Of a DNA stretch of 64,000 nt, positions 2,635 through 57,104 are shown piece after piece (positions within the stretch are counted from its first letter, which is position 1; each line of letters starts with the position of its first letter). The notes beneath the pieces are model-generated. The model had not been told where the DNA came from, did not search any database, and saw only the letters and a list, made by a program, of their open reading frames with translations. Made by a program: the position numbers and the translations under genes. Where the stretch lies: contig CAMPET010000080.1 of NCBI GenBank assembly GCA_946803715.1, forward strand, positions 86,629 through 150,628, given 5' to 3'. The stretch is from Beroe ovata (taxonomy: Eukaryota > Ctenophora > Nuda > Beroida > Beroidae).

Positions 2635-5600
2635 TCAGTGTGCTCCCCTTGTCTCATCCAAATGTAAAATTCTGATAATTGATCCAGGATCGTTTACTTT
2701 CCAGTTGTAAGCTTTGACTATGAGATCCAGAATGACTGTCAACTTTTCCTTGACTGTCGTGAGTGATGGTCTGTCGTGTGATCTGGAGTACAGGGAAAAG
2801 TAACAAAAAATTAAGAGGGCCCCATCGCTTATCAAATTGATAGATAGAAATTACTCTCGATCAGCGAAAAGTTTTACCAATGAATAAGTTTGGAAAATAG
2901 GAGTTTCGACGGAAACCACAGACAGGAATAAGTTTGGAAAATATCATTTAAACCGAGAAGTTTCGACGGAAACCACAGACAGATATAAACCACAAAGATG
3001 AATTCATATCATACCTTTGTCGTATACAAAGCTTGATTAGATTTCGGACTGCTATTGGAACGTGCGGTTGGAATGAAACAATAGGAACGCCGTTGTTATA
3101 CTTGATCTCCTGTTAGTAAGAAAAATAAAACACAATCGTCGACAGTTTTAATTTCAGCATCTACCGACCGTTTTTCGTTACTCCTACTCCAAAAGTTTCC
3201 CTACTTTTTGCGAAAACTCGAGTGTCATGATACTTCAAAATATCCCCTATTTTTGCCCAGTGTCATGCTACTCTAACTCAAACACTCACCAGCAAGTCTT
3301 TGTAGCTGAACTGCGAGTAGTGTATCGCCTCGAGGAGTGTGATACCCAGACTCCAAGTTAGACTGGTCTTGCTGTCAGTGGGAAACCACCTGATCTTATC
3401 CACGTCCTGTTCGGAACATCAGAGAGAGAGATGAGAGAAGATTCATCGCCAAAATGCATCAATAAATTGAGCAAAGACTATACCAGGGCCGTAGTATGAA
3501 ATTTCAATATCAATTCATCCAATCAGTGAAAATACAATTTCCACAGAAATTTCTATACTGGTTCCCTAGCAAAGGCAACACTCTCATATCTACCTGATCA
3601 CTCAGTAATCGTGTGGTTGAATAGAGAGATAGTTTAGCGCACAGAGCGGAGTTTAGGAGAATATTGCGACAGGATAGTGCCCGTAGCGGCAACTTCACAT
3701 CCTCGATATACAGCAATGCACTGCATATGTCACGAATCCAGAATAGAACGTTGAGGGGTGATGTGTCTCTGAAACAGGGTTTGGGAGAATGGACAAAACA
3801 GAGGGTTTGGGAGAATAATGTGGTGCAATGAGCAAAGCGGAGGGTTTGGGAGAGGGAACAGAATAGGTGGGGGCTAGGTTCAGGAACCAGGAAAAGGCCC
3901 TTTCTCCCGGCAAAAGGGGGTTCTTAGGGGATCTTAATATGAATGAATGACTTACTTTTTCCCGTTTTCCGCCAGGTAGATGTCTAAAGTGCCTATTTCG
4001 CACAGCTCTGTCACGATCAATTGCTGCTTTTCGAAGCCTGGAAAAGGGGGATTGAAGAACAGCACCTCGAGACCATGACATTGCCAAATTTTACACTTTG
4101 TTTTGTCATTCGGTCAGATTTGTTATAAATACAGCGCATGAGATCATCAAAATGTGACACCTATCAGGTAGCCATAATCAATTACAAAACTCGAGCCGCG
4201 CATCGATATTGTTAGGAAACACGTGATGATAGATGTTGAAAACAAACAATTTCATGGACAATTGTTTGCGCGCGTTCCACACTCTAAACTACTATTTTGC
4301 GTCCGCCCGAAATTATGATTGATGAAACGGAAATTAGCCCAAGTTGTGGCGTGTATTTGATACATGCTGAAATTTGACACTCGAATAAGTTCATAGTACA
4401 CCAAGTCCTGAGAACTTTGTTCATGACATAAACAAGGAAGTGCAGTAGGAGTGTCAGACTTTCGATGAATTGTTAATAATGAATAACAGCGGATTTCCCA
4501 ATCAATGGAAATCTGATGATCGAAAGATTCTGATACACCCCCACTAAACAAACTGTTACCGCCCAACAAACTGTTACCACCCAACAAACTGTTGTCAGAA
4601 CAAACTGTTACCACTCACCAATCAAACGAACTATGTTATCATGTTCTAGGACAAATGGTTCATGTTTCCACTTGCTGCTTCCCTTAGCAACCCTTTTTAT
4701 AGCAACAGGGACGTAATGGAGTGTTCCTTTGTAAACTTTACTACACGCTCCATTTCCTGAAATATAGCACCAGATTGATCACATTTCTGAGAAAATATCC
4801 AATTGTCCCCCAGCAGCTTTAATGAAAAGGAAATTGATTGTGTTTCGAAGAAAGTTCTAAAATTAGTCACTAGGTATCACACTATATATGGTATTGCAGA
4901 CAAAATGTAGAACTTGAGTACTGCTAGTCAATGATTGTGAAATATCGATGATATATGTCGGTCACAGGTTTTCTTACTCAAGACAAGATTTTGTGGGAAC
5001 GAATGCGTCAGGCGTACAGGTGATCAAAGATCAAGGAACTTTAGAGCAGGCATAATGAACTCATTTCTGGTTCCTCAGGCGATGTTCAATACAACAACAA
5101 ATAACAAATGAACTTACCGACAACTTCACTGCAGAGGATACTGTTCTGATCGAGGGATAGACGGTTTGAAGAGGATTTCAGACTCTCAATTTCGCTCTGT
5201 CGCAGGAAATTTTTCTTATTCTTCTTCCTCTCGCCAGCATTCCTGTAAAACAGTGCAAAGTATTCTATCAAGCACACGAAAGGAGAAGTTATGATATGTC
5301 GGGCTCGCAAAAATATTTACCTGCGTTTGAGTTTGGTCTGAACCTGGTGATTTCCTCCGTCTACCTCATCAGATGAGGAACTCTTCCTAGCAGCTGCCTG
5401 AGGAATGAGCTACGTCACAAACTGGTGTCAGAGGTATGTCATAAACTGGTGTCAGAGGTATGTCATAAACTGGCGTCAGCGCAATTCACAAACTGTTAGA
5501 AATTTTTTCGTCTTGGGCGTGGCTTCACGGCAAGAATGAATCCAGTAAGGTCATTAAAAGAGTGGCTACTCGTAGTATGAGAGTATGAGAGATGATTTGG

Positions 5601-8069
5601 TGAACAATTGGTGTCCTAAGTGCCCGTTAAGACTCCGTTACAAGCCTACAAAAATGACGTACAGGAGTGTGGAGTCATTCACTTCATTTTCTATCGATAC
5701 TGTTGTCAGAAATTCGAAGAAAATTTTTGTTGCATTTTCATGCAAATACCATCGATTCCCATGCATTTTTGGACGCTGAATCGATTCCCGATCGAATTTC
5801 AGCCCTATCTTGCTTCCCTGAGGAGCTGTATATCATGTGACTCAGAACCTCATGACCGAGAAGAAATTTGAATTTTCCCCAATTTCCCAATCAGCTAGCT
5901 CTCTAATTCTTTCAGATTCGAATTCTACGTCAAAAAATAGGCCAGAAACACTTTTTTTCAGTATGTCACGTGCAAATATGTTTTTGGCCTATTTGTGTGT
6001 CCCATTGATTTTCGTGTTTTTGTAGTGAATGCTTCCCAGGGGAGAGAAATCGTCATTTGGGCGTGGTTTCACGGCAAGTATGAACTGAGCATGATCGTCA
6101 AAAGAGTCGATACTTGTAGTGTGATAGTAGGAGAGATGATTTGGTGGAAAATTAGTGTCGTAAGCGCCGGTTAAGACTTCATTAGGGACCTTCAAAAATG
6201 ACGTATAAAAGTGTGGAGTCATTCACTTCATTTTCTATCGATACTGTTGTCAGAAATTCGAAGAAAAATTTTTGTTGCATTTTCATGCAAATACCATCGA
6301 TTCCCATGTATTTTTGGACGCTGAATCGATTCCCGATCGAATTTCGGCCCTATCTTGCTTCCCTGAGGAGCTGTATATCATGTGACTCAGAACCTCATGA
6401 CCGAGAAGAAATTAGAATTTTCCCCAATTTCCCAATCAGCTAGCTCTCTAATTCTTTCAGATTCGAATTCTACGTCAAAAAATAGGCCAGAAACACTATT
6501 TTTCAGTATGTCACGTGCAAAAATGTTTTTGGCCTATTTGTGTGTCCCATTGATTTTCGTGTTTTTGTAGTGAATGCTTCCCAGGGGAGAGAAATCGTCA
6601 TTTGGGCGTGGTTTCACGGCAAGTATGAACTGAGCATGATCGTCAAAAGAGTCGATACTTGTAGTGTGATAGTAGGAGAGATGATTTGGTGGAAAATTAG
6701 TGTCGTAAGCGCCGGTTAAGACTTCATTAGGGACCTTCAAAAATGACGTATAAAAGTGTGGAGTCATTCACTCCATTTTCTATCGATACTGTTGTCAGCA
6801 ATTCGAAGAAAAATTTTTGTTGCATTTTCATGCAAATACCATCGATTCCCATGTATTTTTGGACGCTGAATCGATTCCCGATCGAATTTCGGCCCTATCT
6901 TGCTTCCCTGAGGAGCTGTATATCATGTGACTCAGAACCTCATGACCGAGAAGAAATTAGAATTTTCCCCAATTTCCCAATCAGCTAGCTCTCTAATTCT
7001 TTCAGATTTGAATTCTACGTCAAAAATAGGCCAGAAACACTATTTTTCAGTATGTCACGTGCAAATATGCTTTTGGCCTATTTGTGTGTCCCATTGATTT
7101 TCGTGTTTTTGTAGTGAATGCTTCCCATGGGAGAGAAATCGTTACTTGGGCGTGGTTTCACGGCAAATATGAACAGAGCATGATCGTCAAAAGAGTCGAT
7201 ACTTGTAGTGTGATAGTAGGAGAGATGATTTGGTGAAAAATTAGTGTCGTAAACGGTCATCATCGATTATACTTTCCTACTTATACTGAGATCCGAAATT
7301 CTATGGTGAATTTTTGCTCAATTTTAATGCTAATGCCCTGAATTCCTATATAATTCTGCATGCAGAATGCATGCAGAATTGATTCCCGGTGAAATATTGC
7401 CTCTATCTCGCTTCTCTGAGGCGGTGTCTGCCGTGTGACTTTGAACCTCATATCTGACATCAGTAGGTCGCATCGAATTCTTAATAGCATGAGACTATTC
7501 CCCACCTGCATTTTGAGGAGTTTCCTCTGGGATTTCTCGAGGGATTTACGTTTTATGTTGTTACTCCCCCGTCTCGATAGGGTGTTGTGCAGATCAAGAG
7601 TGATGTTTTCATCTTCTGAGAAGAGAGGGGGAGTGAACGTGTGATTAGGAATTCAACTTCTGTGTCAACAGAGTGGTCTATACGGATCACCACATGGTTC
7701 CTTGTTTAACACGCCGTACAGCACCAGGCTAATTTGATGTGGATAACAACTCCACGTTAATGTTCAAAACACTGTGAATTGACTACATTAGAACGCAACA
7801 TGATTATATAAGCTTGACAGCTACGTGGTATCAACTATTCAAACTGTAATATTAATGCAATGTACACTATTGAGTTGGTTTATGATGAAGTACCAATCAT
7901 CAACAATACATTATATGTACTGTTCAGTCAGGAACGATGATAATTAGATGTATTATATTGTATAATGTATAGTGCATACCATACATTGTATAGTACACGC
8001 TGTAACTGTCACCTTTCACAATGATATGTTCTACAATTAGTATGTCAGACATATCGGGAATATGATGTT

Positions 8070-8155
<86 letters not shown>

Positions 8156-10572
8156 AACACACAAACAAACACGTGCGAGATGAATACAGGCATATCATAA
8201 GATTTTAAGAGTAATGCGAGAAATAACGGTATTAAGCAAAGAAAAGCGATAACACGTGAAACCATTTTGGCTGAAACATAACAACCACATATGCAGGAAA
8301 TAGCCGTCAGGAAAGTGTTCAAAACAAAAGTGTTTTGACGCACTGGGAAAAACTTTCATAATATCAAAACAAACCCATGTATCAGTGACCGGTTCACATT
8401 TCAAAATAAAATTCGCCAAAAATAGCGCTATATGAGTGTTCCATGATACAATGGTACTCACATGGTACAATGGTACTCACAACTTTCCGCGCAAGGTCAT
8501 TAAACGGCAAAGCAATTTGGTAACATAATGTGAAGGCTCATGAGGCTCTGAGATCCTCATTACATATTTGACACTAATGAAGTAACACTATACCTTGCCC
8601 CTTACTAATGCGCTACATTATCTAATGTGTTAAATGTGCTTCTTATAACGGGTATATTGGTGCATTAGTGCAATAATGTAGTATGGGGTGTATAGCGTGT
8701 ATTTTGGGATGTATATTACACAATGCATGATGCACTATATTTTATGAACTCTGTCAGAAATGAGAGAAAGACAGCTTTAAATCACACTGCGATATGACTC
8801 AGAAAAGTAACCCTTTGTGGGAGCCATAAACTTCATAACATGACGGGTATTTCATCCAGTTGAAATGGTGAATTCTTAAGGTGATTGGTGAATAATCCTA
8901 TGGTGAATTTAGTTTAGTTGCACAGGAAATTCAAACTAACTTGATTTGTTGTTCGAGGGAGCAGTATCTTCATCGTCACTGAAAGTCATGTTGAAATATC
9001 CGACTGCATTTCCCTCACTCGGGTAACTATCGTTATCCGACAGAGACAGATTCGAACTGCGAGTATTGGAAATTGGAGTGTTACATTTGAGAATTATTGA
9101 TTGAGGAGTGAGGACCTTGCTCTTAGGATTTTCCCTTAAGATGAATAAACAGATGGGTCGTGAAAGGCTGGAACTTACAGGTTTGCAAGATTGAGACTCG
9201 AGGATTTCCGCTTGGTTTTCATTGCGACTTTTCTCTTGGCTGGACGAGCTGAGTCTATTGATCCATCTGAGACCTGAAATTCGTGATTACTGTTAACATT
9301 CTAACCTGTTTTTTATGTTCATAAACAATTGTTTTGATTTATTGAAGCTTATCCCACAAAAACAGAAAATCATACCAAAACTATCAATTGCGAAACACAA
9401 AGGACACCTGGTACCTCAACATCACTTTGTCTGAAGTTGTCAGGGATCAGCTCTGGTGGGTGTGAGAGGTGACCTCTTTGTAACCACGTGGAAACACAGC
9501 ATGGCTTCCGGAGACCAACACCTGCATCAGAAGAGAGTATCAGGGTGTTCATTTCATAGATTTGAAGGCCAAAGATTCAAATTTCTTTGTTAGCTCATGC
9601 TACAGATCTTAACTCACCCAGGGATTTATCAGTTTTATAAAACTTGATAAGATCAAGCAGGTTATCGAATCTGTTCTGAATTGTGATCCCAATTTTGTTG
9701 TCCATTTCAATCACATCAAATTGCCTGACCTGCATAAAGTATGAAGTGCTGATAGCATGCCAGATGACAGGAAGAAATTGTTTTGCTTCATAATTTTGTC
9801 AACAGGAAAGTTTTAATGTTTATTCACCTTATTATTGAGCCAAATTGAAAGAACATAGATGACTGATTCTTTGATAGAAGTTGTGACAAGAAATGAACCA
9901 CAAATTGGGTCTGTCACAGCAAGCCTCAAACTAACTTCCTCTTTTGGAATTTTTCCATGGAACCAACAGAGACCTGTACACTGCAATATATTGAATGTTG
10001 AATTTTATATTTGAATTCAATGAATGTACAAATAATTGATATTTATTCACACCATTCCCAATTTCAACTGACCTGATGTCCAGGAAAGAGAGAGTCATGA
10101 ACTATAAAGTATCTCACTGGGCAGCCATGAGTCAAAAGAGTCACCATACCATTGGTTTGTTTGCTGTGCTCTATGACCATACTTTCAAGACTCTCATAAA
10201 TGTGATTGGAATCCCACACAATGCTTCCATCAATCTGTAGAATTATTTATTTGCCATCAGAAGGTATGATACCTTGTAGATATTACATACATACTGCAAT
10301 GCCAATTATTACCTTCATTTACCTGTTTAGTGATAAGATAGTGAGCTATTTTCCTCATGTAGTAAACACTGATAACATAATTCTCTTCATCCTGATGATG
10401 GAAATATGAAGGACAATTTCCATGCATCCTTCATCAGATCAGGAAAAGTAAAAGAATGGTTTCATACCTTGGACCTAATAAGGAATGTTCCATCACTACT
10501 ACTGTAGAGCATCAACCGACACTCAGCAGTTTCTCGATCCACATTGCCATGGAAATATAATTCCACCTCCAT
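2635..10572 (-). CDS. Tandem-SH2 protein with a degenerate tyrosine-kinase domain (Syk/ZAP-70-like pseudokinase)
   Basis: Sixteen exons: 10572-10468, 10391-10323, 10234-10073, 9980-9828, 9729-9618, 9521-9415, 9273-9179, 9056-8941, 5393-5321, 5242-5118, 4756-4619, 4037-3956, 3768-3594, 3406-3290, 3109-3015, 2782-2635. Phase holds throughout, giving 623 aa, close to ZAP-70 and Syk. An in-frame TGA lies just before the ATG. Domains: SH2-1 (about 6-98) keeps the pocket arginine as FLIR (R33). SH2-2 (about 118-206, WFHGKI) has FLVT, threonine 145 replacing the arginine. A linker follows with a basic PAKRK..KTKRK patch (possible nuclear signal) and acidic/serine stretches. The kinase-like domain keeps the glycine loop (GNGACSKV, 373-380) and VAIK lysine (K393), but HRD reads LRA (474-476), DFG reads LYS (494-496), the activation loop is short and lacks the paired tyrosines, and the F-helix aspartate is replaced. 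It is probably a phosphotyrosine-binding scaffold. Exon 9 uses the second of two close AG acceptors. Intron 8 (3.5 kb) holds a tandem repeat array. Confidence 0.85.
5513..7262 (+). repeat. Tandem array of ~545-bp repeat (array 1, 3+ copies) in the pseudokinase intron
   Basis: The landmark TTGGGCGTGG...CACGGCAAG recurs near 5513, 6058, 6603 and 7146, a period of 545 bp. Each unit carries TATTTTTGGACGCTGAATCG, CTACGTCAAAAAATAGG, GTCCCATTGATTTTCGTG and GATGATTTGGTG. Copies 2 and 3 are almost identical, while the outer ones are more diverged. Short open frames inside are repeated by-products, not genes. Related arrays lie at about 23.1-24.4 kb and 39.5-41.4 kb. Confidence 0.9.
7263..8940. other. 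Remaining intron sequence with a CA microsatellite
   Basis: Part of intron 8 of the minus-strand pseudokinase gene. It holds a long CA repeat at about 8071-8170 and AT-rich sequence with short direct repeats (GGTACAATGGTACTCAC near 8450-8480). No exon with splice signals could be supported. Confidence 0.5.
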
Positions 10573-39700: not shown

Positions 39701-42112
39701 CCATGCAAGCACCATGTATTCCCATGTATTTTTGGACGCTGAATCGATTCCCGAACGAATTTAGGCCCTATCTCGCTTTCCTGAGGAGCTGCAGGTCATG
39801 GGACTTCGAACCTTATGTCCAAGAAGAAATTGGAATTTATCCAAGTTTCCTGATGAGCAAGCTCGAAAATTCCTTCAGATTCGGATTCTACGTCAAAAAA
39901 TAGGTTAGAAACACTTATTACCAGTCATCGTCCCGCGAAAAAACTTTTACCGATTTTGGTGTGTCCCATTGATTTTCGTGTTTTTGCAGATTATTTTCCC
40001 ACAGGCTTGAAATCGTGATTTGGGCGTGGTTTCACGACAAGTATGAACTTTTCATGATCGTGACAAGGGTTGATATTTGTAGTGTGATAGTAGGAAAGAT
40101 GATTTGGTGGAAAATTTGCGGCGTAAGTGCCGGAGGAACTTCATAAGAGAGCTTTAAAAACGGAGTACAAAAGTGTGTGATCAATCACTTCACTTTCTAC
40201 CGATACTCAGATCACAAAATCAAAGAAAATTTTTTGTTTTATTTCCATGCAAACACCATGTATTCCCATGTATTTTTGGACGCTGAATCGATTCCCGAAC
40301 GAATTTAGGCTCTATCTCGCGTCCCTGAGGAGCTGCAGGTCACGGGACTTCAAACCACGTGTCCAAGAAGAAATTGGAATTTATCCAAGTTTCCTGATGA
40401 GCAAGCTCGAAAATTCCTTCAGATTCGGATTCTACGTCAAAAAATAGGCTAGAAACACTTATTACCAGTCATATTCCCGCGAAAATTTTTTTACCGATTT
40501 TGGTGTGTCCCATTGATTTTCGTGTTTTGCAGTTTATTTTCCCACATGCTTGAAATCGTGATTTGGGCGTGGTTTCACGACAAGTATGAACTTTTCATGA
40601 TCGTGACGAGGGTTGATATTTGTAGTATGATAGTAGGAAAGATGATTTGGTGAAAAATTGGTGGCGTAAGTACCGGAGAAACTTCATAAGAGATCTTTAA
40701 AAACGGAGTACAAAAGTGTGGGATCAATCACTTCACTTTCTACTGATACTCAGATCACAAAATCGAAGAAAAATTTTTGATCTATTTCCATACAATCACA
40801 ATGTATTCCCATGTATTTTTGGACGCTGAATCGATTCCCGAAAAAATTTAGGCCCTATCTCGCTTCCCTGAGGAGCTGCAGGTCACGGGATTTCAAACCA
40901 CGTGTCCAAGAAGAAATTGGAATTTATCCAAGTTTCCTGATGAGCAAGCTCGAAAATTCCTTCAGATTCGGATTCTACGTCAAAAAATAGGCTAGAAACA
41001 CTTATTACCAGTCATTGTCCCGCGAAAAATTTTTTACCGATTTTGGTGTGTCCCATTGATTTTCGTGTTTTTGCAGATAATTTTCCCACAGGTTTGAAAT
41101 CGTGATTTGGGCGTGGTTTCACGACAAGTTTGAACTTTTCATGATCGTGTTGAGGGTTGATATTTGTAGTATGATAGTAGGGAAGATGATTTGGTGGAAA
41201 ATTTGTGGCGTAAGTGCCGGAGAGACTCCGTAAGAGAGCTTTAAAAACGGAGTACAAAAGTGTGAGATCAATCACTTCACTTTCTACCGATACTCAGATC
41301 ACAAAATCAAAGAAAAGTTTTAGTTTTATTTACATGCAAACACCATGCATTCCCATGTATTTTTGGACGCTGAATCGATTCCCGGTTGAATTTAGGCCCT
41401 ATCTCGCTCACCTGAGGAGCTGTTTGTCGGATGACTTCTAACCTTAGCAAGCCGCTCGCCGTTACATACAAAAAATGCCAAATTATGATAGGGATATCCC
41501 ATACCATGGAATTTGGCAAATCCCTCAAATCCGCCCTCAAGTATAATTAACACCTCAAACACGCACATTTATCCCAGGAAGAAAGCAAGCAAAGCGCGGA
41601 TGATGCATCGCTTCACTACTCCCAAAACCCTCAAAGAAGACCACACAAGTCGGCCGATCAATGAGATTGCCGAACGGCGTTCCTCCGACGAAATGCCGTC
41701 AGCCGAAGCCGTATCCTACCCCACCGTTTCGGAGGACATGCTCCAAACGTCCGTCAAAAGATCGTCGCCGCAAGATCGACGGCGGGTGCGCGCGGGGCGC
41801 ATCGACAAAACCACGATCATGATCATAATAATAATCGGGATGACGATGATAACGCAGATCCCCGTTTGTTTCGTGTACACGTTCAACTACATATCAGATG
41901 ACGAGGACTTGCGGATCAGCATGCCAGACTATCTCACCATATTGTTACACTGGCTTCTCCTGGTTAACAGTGCTGCTGACCCCGTGATATATGGACTAAT
42001 GAACCCGCCCTTCAGGACGGCGTACCTCAAGTTCTTCAATAACGTTAGGTATTGCTGGAGGAAGAATAACAGGACGCCCCCCTCCCGAACGGATTTGTAT
42101 TCGTTTAAATAG
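36735..42112 (+). CDS. Class A (rhodopsin-like) orphan GPCR, Tre1/Moody/GPR84/melatonin-receptor-like
   Basis: Six exons (36735-36840, 37018-37182, 38108-38290, 38574-38643, 38886-38996, 41578-42112) in phase give 389 aa with seven hydrophobic helices. Family marks: GNTLAL in TM1, LNLAISD in TM2, C92 and C168 for the extracellular disulfide, N116-R117-F118 in place of DRY, IWLIAI in TM4, FSYTHIF in TM5, a long basic third intracellular loop (about 75 residues), TQIPVC in TM6 where CWxP is usual, and ADPVIY in TM7 in place of NPxxY. NRY-type triplets and the LRTVRNKFILNLAISD loop recall the Tre1/Moody, GPR84 and melatonin receptor group, so subfamily placement is tentative. The ligand is unknown. 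The last intron (2.6 kb) contains repeat array 3. Confidence 0.85.
39535..41440 (+). repeat. Tandem array of ~543-bp repeat (array 3) in the GPCR intron
   Basis: Landmark TTGGGCGTGGTTTCACGACAAG recurs near 40020, 40563 and 41106, a 543-bp period, with about 3.5 copies. Inner segment orientation matches array 1 (TATTTTTGGACGCTGAATCG...CTACGTCAAAAAATAGG). Confidence 0.9.
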
Positions 42113-56240: not shown

Positions 56241-56312
56241 TAAGTAATCCTTTGTGCCTGCTGGAAAACTTAAGGCAATATTCTTAAATTTTATCAATAT
56301 TTGTTCTAGCGT

Positions 56313-57104
56313 ATGGCTAAACGGAAGAGAAAGGCAGCTCCCAAGACTCTGGATGGCATTCCAGGTGCAAAGAATTGGAAGAAACTTTGTAAAGAACTGT
56401 CAATTTCAATCCCTACAAAGACTAAATGTCTTCTCAAGAGTAAGGATGTCCAAGAATGTGACACTCCCATCAATAATAAGCCTCAAAATGTTACTATCCT
56501 AAAGAGTAAGGAAAAGTCAAGCAACATAACCCATCGGCTTGCTCTGGATTGTGAAATGGTTGGATGTGGACCTGAGGGGGTAAACAGTCAGTTAGCAAGG
56601 ATATCCATTGTAAACATTCATGGTGAAACTGTCTATGACCAAATAGTTCTCCCTCAAGAAACAGTGACTGATTACAGAAGCCATATTACTGGATTAGATA
56701 AACAAACCCTTTCTAGCCAAGGGAGACCATTCAAAGAGGTCCAAAAAGAAGTTGCTAGTATGATAGACGGAAAAATCATAATTGGTCATGATATCAAGCA
56801 TGACTTTCAATGTCTACAATTTTCACACCCTAAGAGTTTGATCAGAGATACATCTAAGTATAAACCTTTCAGAATTGCATCTAAAGGGAACTCTCCATCC
56901 CTGAAGAAGCTCTGTAAACTGATATTAAATCAAGACATCCAGGATGGGGCTCATGACTCTGTTGAGGATGCAATTGCTACACTGCAACTTTATAAGAAGC
57001 ACAGGGCAGCATGGGAGAGGGGGATTAAAAATCACAAGAAAAGGAGCAAAGAAAAAGAATGTGCAGACAGTGAAGATGATGCACAAGATAATGTTGAAAA
57101 TTGA
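56313..57104 (+). CDS. REXO4: REXO4-like DEDDh 3'-5' RNA exonuclease
   Basis: Single coding exon of 263 aa. A 5' untranslated intron probably ends three bases before the ATG (TTGTTCTAG|CGT). The N-terminus is lysine/arginine-rich (KRKRKAAPK), fitting nucleolar targeting, with NWKKLCKEL as in REXO4 relatives. The DEDDh core is complete: ExoI D79 and E81 in LALDCEMVG, ExoII D164 in GHDIKHDF, ExoIII H214 and D219 in HDSVEDA. TGL and RDT motifs of the family are present. The tail is basic then acidic. Family members process pre-rRNA. This is shorter than human REXO4 mainly in the N-terminal extension. ISG20-type relatives are the alternative, but the basic N-terminus favours REXO4. Confidence 0.9.
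   Translation: MAKRKRKAAPKTLDGIPGAKNWKKLCKELSISIPTKTKCLLKSKDVQECDTPINNKPQNVTILKSKEKSSNITHRLALDCEMVGCGPEGVNSQLARISIVNIHGETVYDQIVLPQETVTDYRSHITGLDKQTLSSQGRPFKEVQKEVASMIDGKIIIGHDIKHDFQCLQFSHPKSLIRDTSKYKPFRIASKGNSPSLKKLCKLILNQDIQDGAHDSVEDAIATLQLYKKHRAAWERGIKNHKKRSKEKECADSEDDAQDNVEN

Follow-up and report, generated by a model that had tools for sequence, protein, structure and literature searches.

A probable tandem-SH2 pseudokinase with Syk/Shark-like architecture in the comb jelly Beroe ovata

Syk and Shark kinases connect tyrosine-motif receptors to immune and clearance responses. According to excerpts of a planulozoan survey (cnidarians and bilaterians), vertebrate-like Syk/ZAP-70 occurs in invertebrates only where CARD-CC/Bcl10 are found (PMC5978004), and the excerpted text of another study credits invertebrates with one Syk-like gene plus HTK16/Shark (PMC10253181). 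In excerpts of a holozoan tyrosine kinome analysis, Syk is listed among the families that emerged in vertebrates; pseudokinases come up three times in its main text, which contains none of the terms "ctenophor", "Mnemiopsis", and "Shark" (PMC8662651). The human SH2 domains named as lacking the FLVR arginine in an excerpt on this subject are those of RIN2, TYK2, and SH2D5 (PMC7530234). Here, we describe a gene found in a 64,000-nucleotide stretch of the Beroe ovata genome (contig CAMPET010000080.1, positions 86,629 to 150,628; hereafter, the window), which encodes two SH2 domains, a long linker, and a kinase-like domain with altered catalytic motifs. We favor, with some reserve, the reading that its product is a tandem-SH2 pseudokinase, probably Syk/Shark-derived, that would act as a single-site phosphotyrosine adaptor or decoy without catalysis.

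The gene is located on the minus strand of the window and forms a closed frame, from the ATG at 10572 to a stop codon finishing at 2635, with the domain order SH2-SH2-linker-kinase-like. A first-pass annotation had placed a pair of SH2 domains together with a kinase-like domain in one open frame, and both the reading frame and Pfam agree with this. Thus, in the 623-amino acid (aa) chain of that annotation, the SH2 family was found in two stretches (expectation value, E, of 6.4e-23) and PK_Tyr_Ser-Thr was found with E of 4.3e-23. Each SH2 domain scanned alone also exceeds the Pfam cut-off of 21 bits, with 48 and 41.5 bits. The same annotation had counted 16 exons, and in this respect one exon was overlooked. 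The 16-exon chain itself reads cleanly, and the missing exon was revealed by comparison with two relatives, P0001 and P0002. The 16-exon, 623-aa model was dropped in favor of 17 coding exons and 661 aa because the peptide encoded by exon 9 is present in both of them. In the revised model, all 16 introns have GT-AG borders, exon 10 starts at 5397 instead of 5393, and the chain is equal in length to P0001 and aligns with it in register. The 16-exon splice is possible as an isoform. In the intron between exons 9 and 10 (2108 bases), a unit of approximately 545 bases occurs as three tandem copies (5513-7255; 80-99% alike in their aligned parts), and a CA dinucleotide run is located in the preceding intron, which separates exons 8 and 9 (8071-8172).

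For comparison of its motifs, the kinase-like domain was aligned to 12 reference kinases. The glycine loop (GNGACSKVYKG, 5118-4725, split by an intron), the VAIK Lys, and the Asn of the catalytic loop (CRN) are kept in the window protein. HRD is replaced by LRA (LPLRALSCRN, 3692-3663), and the whole HRDLAARN motif reads LRALSCRN in the window protein, P0001, and P0002 alike. At the DFG site, LYS was found in the window protein (KLSLYST, 3635-3615), IYS in P0001, and LFS in P0002. APE is replaced by PTD in all three proteins, and SDVW is replaced by SLTW in the window protein and by CLTW in P0002, so the Asp of the F-helix is lost. The activation-loop tyrosine pair is absent from all three. The segment from DFG to the W is 16 residues long in the window protein and P0001 vs. 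19-29 residues in the references (25 in SYK). Two further distances are shorter in every one of the three proteins than in every one of the 12 references: 17 residues vs. 22-26 from the VAIK Lys to HDN, which marks a shortened alpha-C region, and 8 residues vs. 15 from the W on the APE side to the F-helix position. In a low-confidence structure model of P0001, no helix was predicted at the alpha-C region. By motif, the kinase-like domain should not transfer phosphate. The kept and lost residues are as the first reading had them, and its view that these losses abolish phosphotransfer is supported at the motif level by a state common to three sequences. Its suggestion that nucleotide may still be bound is weakened; with the alpha-C region shortened as well, binding appears less likely than it had seemed.

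The two SH2 domains differ in their phosphotyrosine pockets. In the first SH2 domain, Arg13 of alpha-A, the FLVR Arg33, and His52 of beta-D are invariant in all three proteins and make up a canonical pocket. In the second SH2 domain, the FLVR Arg is replaced by Thr145 (FLVTTS, 9893-9876) and the beta-D4 His by Gln166, again in all three proteins. Thus, only the first of the two domains looks able to read phosphotyrosine, because the second has no FLVR arginine in any of these sequences. The previous statement that the protein can still read phosphotyrosine therefore stands for the first SH2 domain and falls for the second. The spacer between the domains, described in the same place as about 20 residues and far shorter than in Syk, indeed covers aa 97-116.

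Protein searches were carried out over approximately 5.8 billion proteins and required shared 5-residue words, so remote orthologues may be missed. In the first search (E up to 0.001), 3 of 6085 candidates were retained, namely P0001, P0002, and a marginal plant kinase (E of 6.4e-4). The second search, with a profile (E up to 1e-5), yielded 7 of 7987 candidates, scoring being limited to those sharing most words, and the third yielded 2 of 641. Strong relatives in these searches were only P0001 and P0002, the remainder being distant kinases. Outside comb jellies, the top hit of the profile search was the Shark protein P0004 (E of 6.4e-22). No match was found in a phage collection, and nothing exceeded the cut-off in an NCBIfam scan. 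P0001 is encoded on a 2502-base contig and has 79% local identity to the window protein, or 85% over a MAFFT alignment with the 17-exon chain. P0002 belongs to Bolinopsis microptera and is named "tyrosine-protein kinase SYK-like isoform X1"; its local identity is 62%, or 69% over a MAFFT alignment with the 16-exon chain. This public name is probably wrong as to activity. P0002 also has a short C-terminus and a 14-residue insert at or beside the point where exons 14 and 15 of the window gene join, which are perhaps annotation errors or mark an isoform.

The altered motifs of the window protein recur in both relatives (LRALSCRN, KLS-[LI]-[YF]-ST, P-T-D, and LTW). Looking for the LRA and LYS substitutions in relatives had been proposed at the outset; LRA was found in all three sequences, the LYS site varying as given above. 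This recurrence points to a conserved pseudokinase rather than to a decaying gene. Identities by region are as follows: SH2 pair, 86.0% (191/222) to P0001 and 72.1% (160/222) to Bolinopsis; first SH2 domain, 86.6% (97/112) and 83.0% (93/112); kinase-like domain, 85.7% (210/245) and 72.1% (165/229); and linker, 86.1% (149/173) and 60.3% (105/174). The Bolinopsis kinase comparison has 30 gap columns due to the insert and the short end of the P0002 model. Relative to Bolinopsis, the dead domain is thus conserved like the SH2 pair and above the second SH2 domain and the linker. Its substituted motifs are also invariant or nearly so, and this conservation suggests that selection has acted on the domain in its non-catalytic state.

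Because the same losses are seen in both known relatives, retention of the protein as a non-enzymatic signaling adaptor is probable. In such a mechanism, the first SH2 domain, with its kept pocket residues, would recruit the protein to single phosphotyrosine sites. The second SH2 domain and the kinase-like domain would serve as folded interaction surfaces, and the protein would work as a non-catalytic adaptor. As a decoy, it may instead occupy sites that an active SH2 protein would use. Two-handed reading of doubly phosphorylated immunoreceptor tyrosine-based activation motifs (ITAMs), in the manner of Syk, is unlikely because one pocket has no arginine and the spacer between the SH2 domains has only about 20 residues. 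The linker contains three clusters of Lys/Arg (9237-9205, 7556-7521, and 5334-5212), common to all three proteins, as well as acidic and serine stretches; a role of the basic clusters in nuclear or membrane targeting would be a guess. Each of the three proteins has only two tyrosines in the linker, none of which is aligned across all three, so phosphotyrosine docking sites of the Syk-linker type are not conserved. Of the "Syk-type adaptor or decoy" proposed in the first-pass annotation, the catalytically dead state is upheld by motif in all three proteins; only one phosphotyrosine pocket remains, and descent from Syk is unproven by the kinase domain.

Results of several comparisons place the protein near the Syk/Shark group. 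In a whole-chain search of PDB, the best matches were Syk and ZAP-70. A profile of the SH2 pair had Syk as its best match in PDB, both Syk SH2 domains aligning to the first SH2 domain, and Syk-family SH2 domains were among the closest to the first SH2 domain in PDB as well as in a local test. With the profiles of the first and second SH2 domains, respectively, the Syk C-SH2 scored 44 and 30 bits and the Shark N-SH2 scored 35 and 33 bits, and the Syk N-SH2 had 36 bits with the first profile; scores on JAK and on a PLC-gamma-like open reading frame were 12 bits or less. The kinase profile, scored over 13 references, ranked SHARK (66 bits), ZAP70 (57 bits), and EPH (55 bits) highest and the JAK JH2 domain lowest (22 bits). 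In the tree, the three proteins are located on the SYK/ZAP70/SHARK side at an unstarred 80/86, and their branch is 5.2 changes per column long. Among pairs of references, SYK+ZAP70 shares the most private residues with the three proteins (4; first of 66 pairs), although these kinases are also close to one another. A double Leu of the RNILL type was found in SYK, ZAP70, and SHARK and in none of the nine other references of the alignment, and the W-Y of P0001 and P0002 was found among the references in SYK, ZAP70, SHARK, and JAK. The first 23 Foldseek ranks are all ZAP-70/Syk, obtained with a poor model and with low template modeling scores.

Other observations weigh against this reading. The second SH2 profile gave 1 bit on the Syk N-SH2, the second SH2 domain of Shark had only 7 and 3 bits with the two profiles, and the second SH2 domain alone best matched the SH2 domains of Csk and RasGAP in PDB. 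In the kinase profile ranking, SYK was sixth of 13 (51 bits), behind EPH, CSK, and ABL1, and against PDB the best match of this profile was Eph (85 bits vs. about 60 for ZAP-70). Alternative tree groupings with Eph (p 0.29), Csk (p 0.16), and JAK (p 0.36) were not rejected. Taken singly, FAK has 5 private residues in common with the three proteins vs. 4 for SYK, and pairs of Shark with SYK or ZAP70 share none. The structure models are poor, with mean predicted local distance difference test values of 30 and 43. The DFG-to-W segment of P0002 is not short but 30 residues long, its insert holding one Tyr. In Bolinopsis, conservation of the second SH2 domain is poor (59.2%, 58/98, vs. 84.7%, 83/98, in P0001), and relative to P0001 every region is about equally conserved; these conservation estimates come from three sequences compared at the protein level. 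Finally, an adaptor, a decoy, and an allosteric partner are not separable from sequence.

These results bear on an alternative origin by independent joining, in which two SH2 domains were combined with a degenerate tyrosine kinase without Syk/Shark descent. The Eph preference of the kinase profile, the Csk and RasGAP preference of the second SH2 domain, the unrejected tree groupings, and the FAK count all agree with such an origin. It is opposed by the order SH2-SH2-long linker-kinase, by the preference of both SH2 profiles for Syk or Shark SH2 domains over JAK and the PLC-gamma-like frame, by the top rank of the SYK+ZAP70 pair, and by the double Leu and W-Y held in common with SYK, ZAP70, and SHARK. 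We consider independent joining unlikely, though of the alternatives it survives best. The architecture is Syk/Shark-like and the protein probably descends from the Syk/Shark group, although the kinase domain by itself leaves this descent undecided. The previous label "Syk-type" is thus backed by the tandem SH2 domains and the whole-chain PDB matches and left unproven by the kinase domain; a kinase tree, suggested as a check on it, gave the expected side and did not exclude other families. Because several defining features of the Syk family were looked for in the protein and not found, it is not classed as a member of this family.

As an allosteric partner, the pseudokinase would pair with an active kinase, activating or inhibiting it, and the role of the SH2 domains would be limited to recruitment to the complex. 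HER3 (with EGFR-family kinases) and KSR (with RAF) provide precedents for such pairing in excerpts of the literature (PMC11311582). Of the two halves of the kinase-like domain, the C-lobe is indeed more strongly conserved (88.9%, 152/171, in P0001 and 72.9%, 113/155, in Bolinopsis). Allosteric activators often act via an intact alpha-C face, a region that is cut back in the window protein, and there is no sign of a partner; this role is accordingly rather improbable next to that of the adaptor or decoy. Residual or unusual catalysis, known from some "dead" kinases, would make use of the retained glycine loop, VAIK Lys, and CRN Asn, but the catalytic Asp, the DFG Asp, APE, and the F-helix Asp are altered together in all three proteins and alpha-C is shortened, so we regard it as very improbable. 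A decaying pseudogene or wrong gene model, which the lost motifs and the repeats within two large introns might suggest, is hardly credible and was rejected at the sequence level, given the closed 17-exon frame with GT-AG introns, two proteins (85% and about 69% identity) sharing these substitutions, and a P0001 contig of 2502 bases that is too short to accommodate introns of the kind seen in the window gene.

Other kinases were searched in the Beroe ovata assembly (77.8 Mb, 534 contigs), which was read exon by exon. With the window protein as a query (E up to 1), 17 matches were found, 16 of them on the contig of the window; the sole match elsewhere is a weak kinase (E of 0.0055). A human SYK query gave 72 matches (E up to 0.001) and 123 candidates, of which 69 were scored. 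Degenerate copies would escape this search, since the window gene itself is not among its matches. Families were assigned by comparison of 69 of 85 loci with 13 references, kinase loci such as C1:1403004 and C6 being left out. The clearest kinases are Src (C173), Abl (C87), and FAK (C156). Loci C38 and C92 have Shark highest in sum (C92 tied with FAK); Abl is their best single match of four references, and the KWYAPE signature was found in neither. By thin margins, C142 and C169 have ZAP70 on top (73 and 60 bits) and C46 has Shark (62 bits); C50 appears Abl- or FES-like. In total, no convincing active Syk was found in these genome searches, in which C38 and C92 are Shark-highest in sum and some kinase loci lie outside the scope. 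That a tandem-SH2 pseudokinase, as a phosphotyrosine reader without its own catalysis, stands in for a catalytic Syk/Shark kinase in comb jellies is a tentative and still doubtful proposal. If true, a Syk-type module of early animals functioned purely as an adaptor or was co-opted as one. Two further observations were made in the same genome. Two SH2 domains are located in an uninterrupted 355-aa frame (L011/L012, G000:C149:52540-56169), which by eye is PLC-gamma-like and not Syk. Two kinase matches with identical scores (L054 and L055, G000:C119) lie on opposite strands about 35 kb apart and reflect either a recent inverted duplication or an artifact of the assembly.

Among the open-licence papers listed by the literature searches (subscription papers being outside the scope), no title describes such a protein, in line with the first-pass annotation, which knew of no tandem-SH2 pseudokinase of this kind. 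Likewise, no open-licence paper was found that combines Syk, ctenophores, and SH2. The main text of the Mnemiopsis chromosome-genome paper contains none of the words "Syk", "tyrosine kinase", "SH2", "ITAM", and "pseudokinase", and that of the Beroe ovata paper does not contain "kinase".

Coordinates of the gene and its parts are given in Table 1. Elsewhere in the window, a frame with a RING-like peptide, seen by eye, is located on the minus strand (387-899) and perhaps belongs to an adjoining TRIM-type gene. On the plus strand, a 264-aa open frame (56310-57104) contains an RNase_T exonuclease domain (Pfam, 44.9 bits) and is presumably REX4-like, and another open frame (41492-42112) contains the last part of a rhodopsin-type seven-transmembrane receptor (7tm_1, 32.4 bits).

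Table 1. Features of the tandem-SH2 pseudokinase gene in the Beroe ovata window.
Feature	Position	Strand	Evidence
Whole gene, SH2-SH2-linker-pseudokinase	2635..10572	-	closed frame, 16/16 GT-AG introns, P0001 register
Exons 1-17	10572-10468, 10391-10323, 10234-10073, 9980-9828, 9729-9618, 9521-9415, 9273-9179, 9056-8941, 7615-7506, 5397-5321, 5242-5118, 4756-4619, 4037-3956, 3768-3594, 3406-3290, 3109-3015, 2782-2635	-	
First SH2 domain, aa 6-96	10121..10557	-	PF00017, 48 bits alone
Second SH2 domain, about aa 116-212	9487..9971	-	PF00017, 41.5 bits alone
Long linker, SH2 pair to kinase-like domain	5131..9486	-	
Exon 9, part of linker, C-terminal end KRKSLEKSQRKLLKMQ	7506..7615	-	identity 94.6% (35/37) to P0001, 73.0% (27/37) to P0002
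Kinase-like domain, about aa 407-641	2698..5130	-	PF07714, 82.4 bits vs. cut-off 23.1
Shortened alpha-C region	4635..4685	-	residues counted by script
PTD and SLTW stretch RWFPTDSKTSLTWSLG	3391-3344	-	alignment with 12 references

Among known systems, Syk and ZAP-70 resemble the window protein in size, in the order SH2-SH2-linker-tyrosine-kinase-like, and as its best PDB matches for the whole chain and the SH2 pair. The window protein differs from them by its altered HRD, DFG, and APE, by the absence of the activation-loop tyrosine pair, and by its few linker tyrosines. Where the FLVR Arg is expected in both SH2 domains, it keeps Arg33 only, and its spacer between the SH2 domains has about 20 residues vs. 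about 60 in Syk, as judged from the SH2 limits of the PDB match. Shark/HTK16 (SH2-ankyrin-SH2-kinase) likewise has two SH2 domains ahead of the kinase, whereas no ankyrin repeats were found in the window protein by Pfam scans; the Shark protein P0004 keeps HRD, DFG, and both FLVR arginines, unlike the window protein. JAK also combines an SH2 domain and a pseudokinase domain in the same chain, but it consists of FERM, one SH2 domain, and a second, active kinase domain, as is also visible in P0006. HER3, KSR, and other signaling pseudokinases share with the window protein a kinase-like domain that was kept while its catalytic motifs were lost; a tandem of SH2 domains is not known from either HER3 or KSR. 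Absence of the FLVR arginine is a feature common to the SH2 domains of TYK2, RIN2, and SH2D5 (PMC7530234), which have His or Trp at this position, whereas the window protein has Thr, beside an SH2 domain that keeps the Arg.

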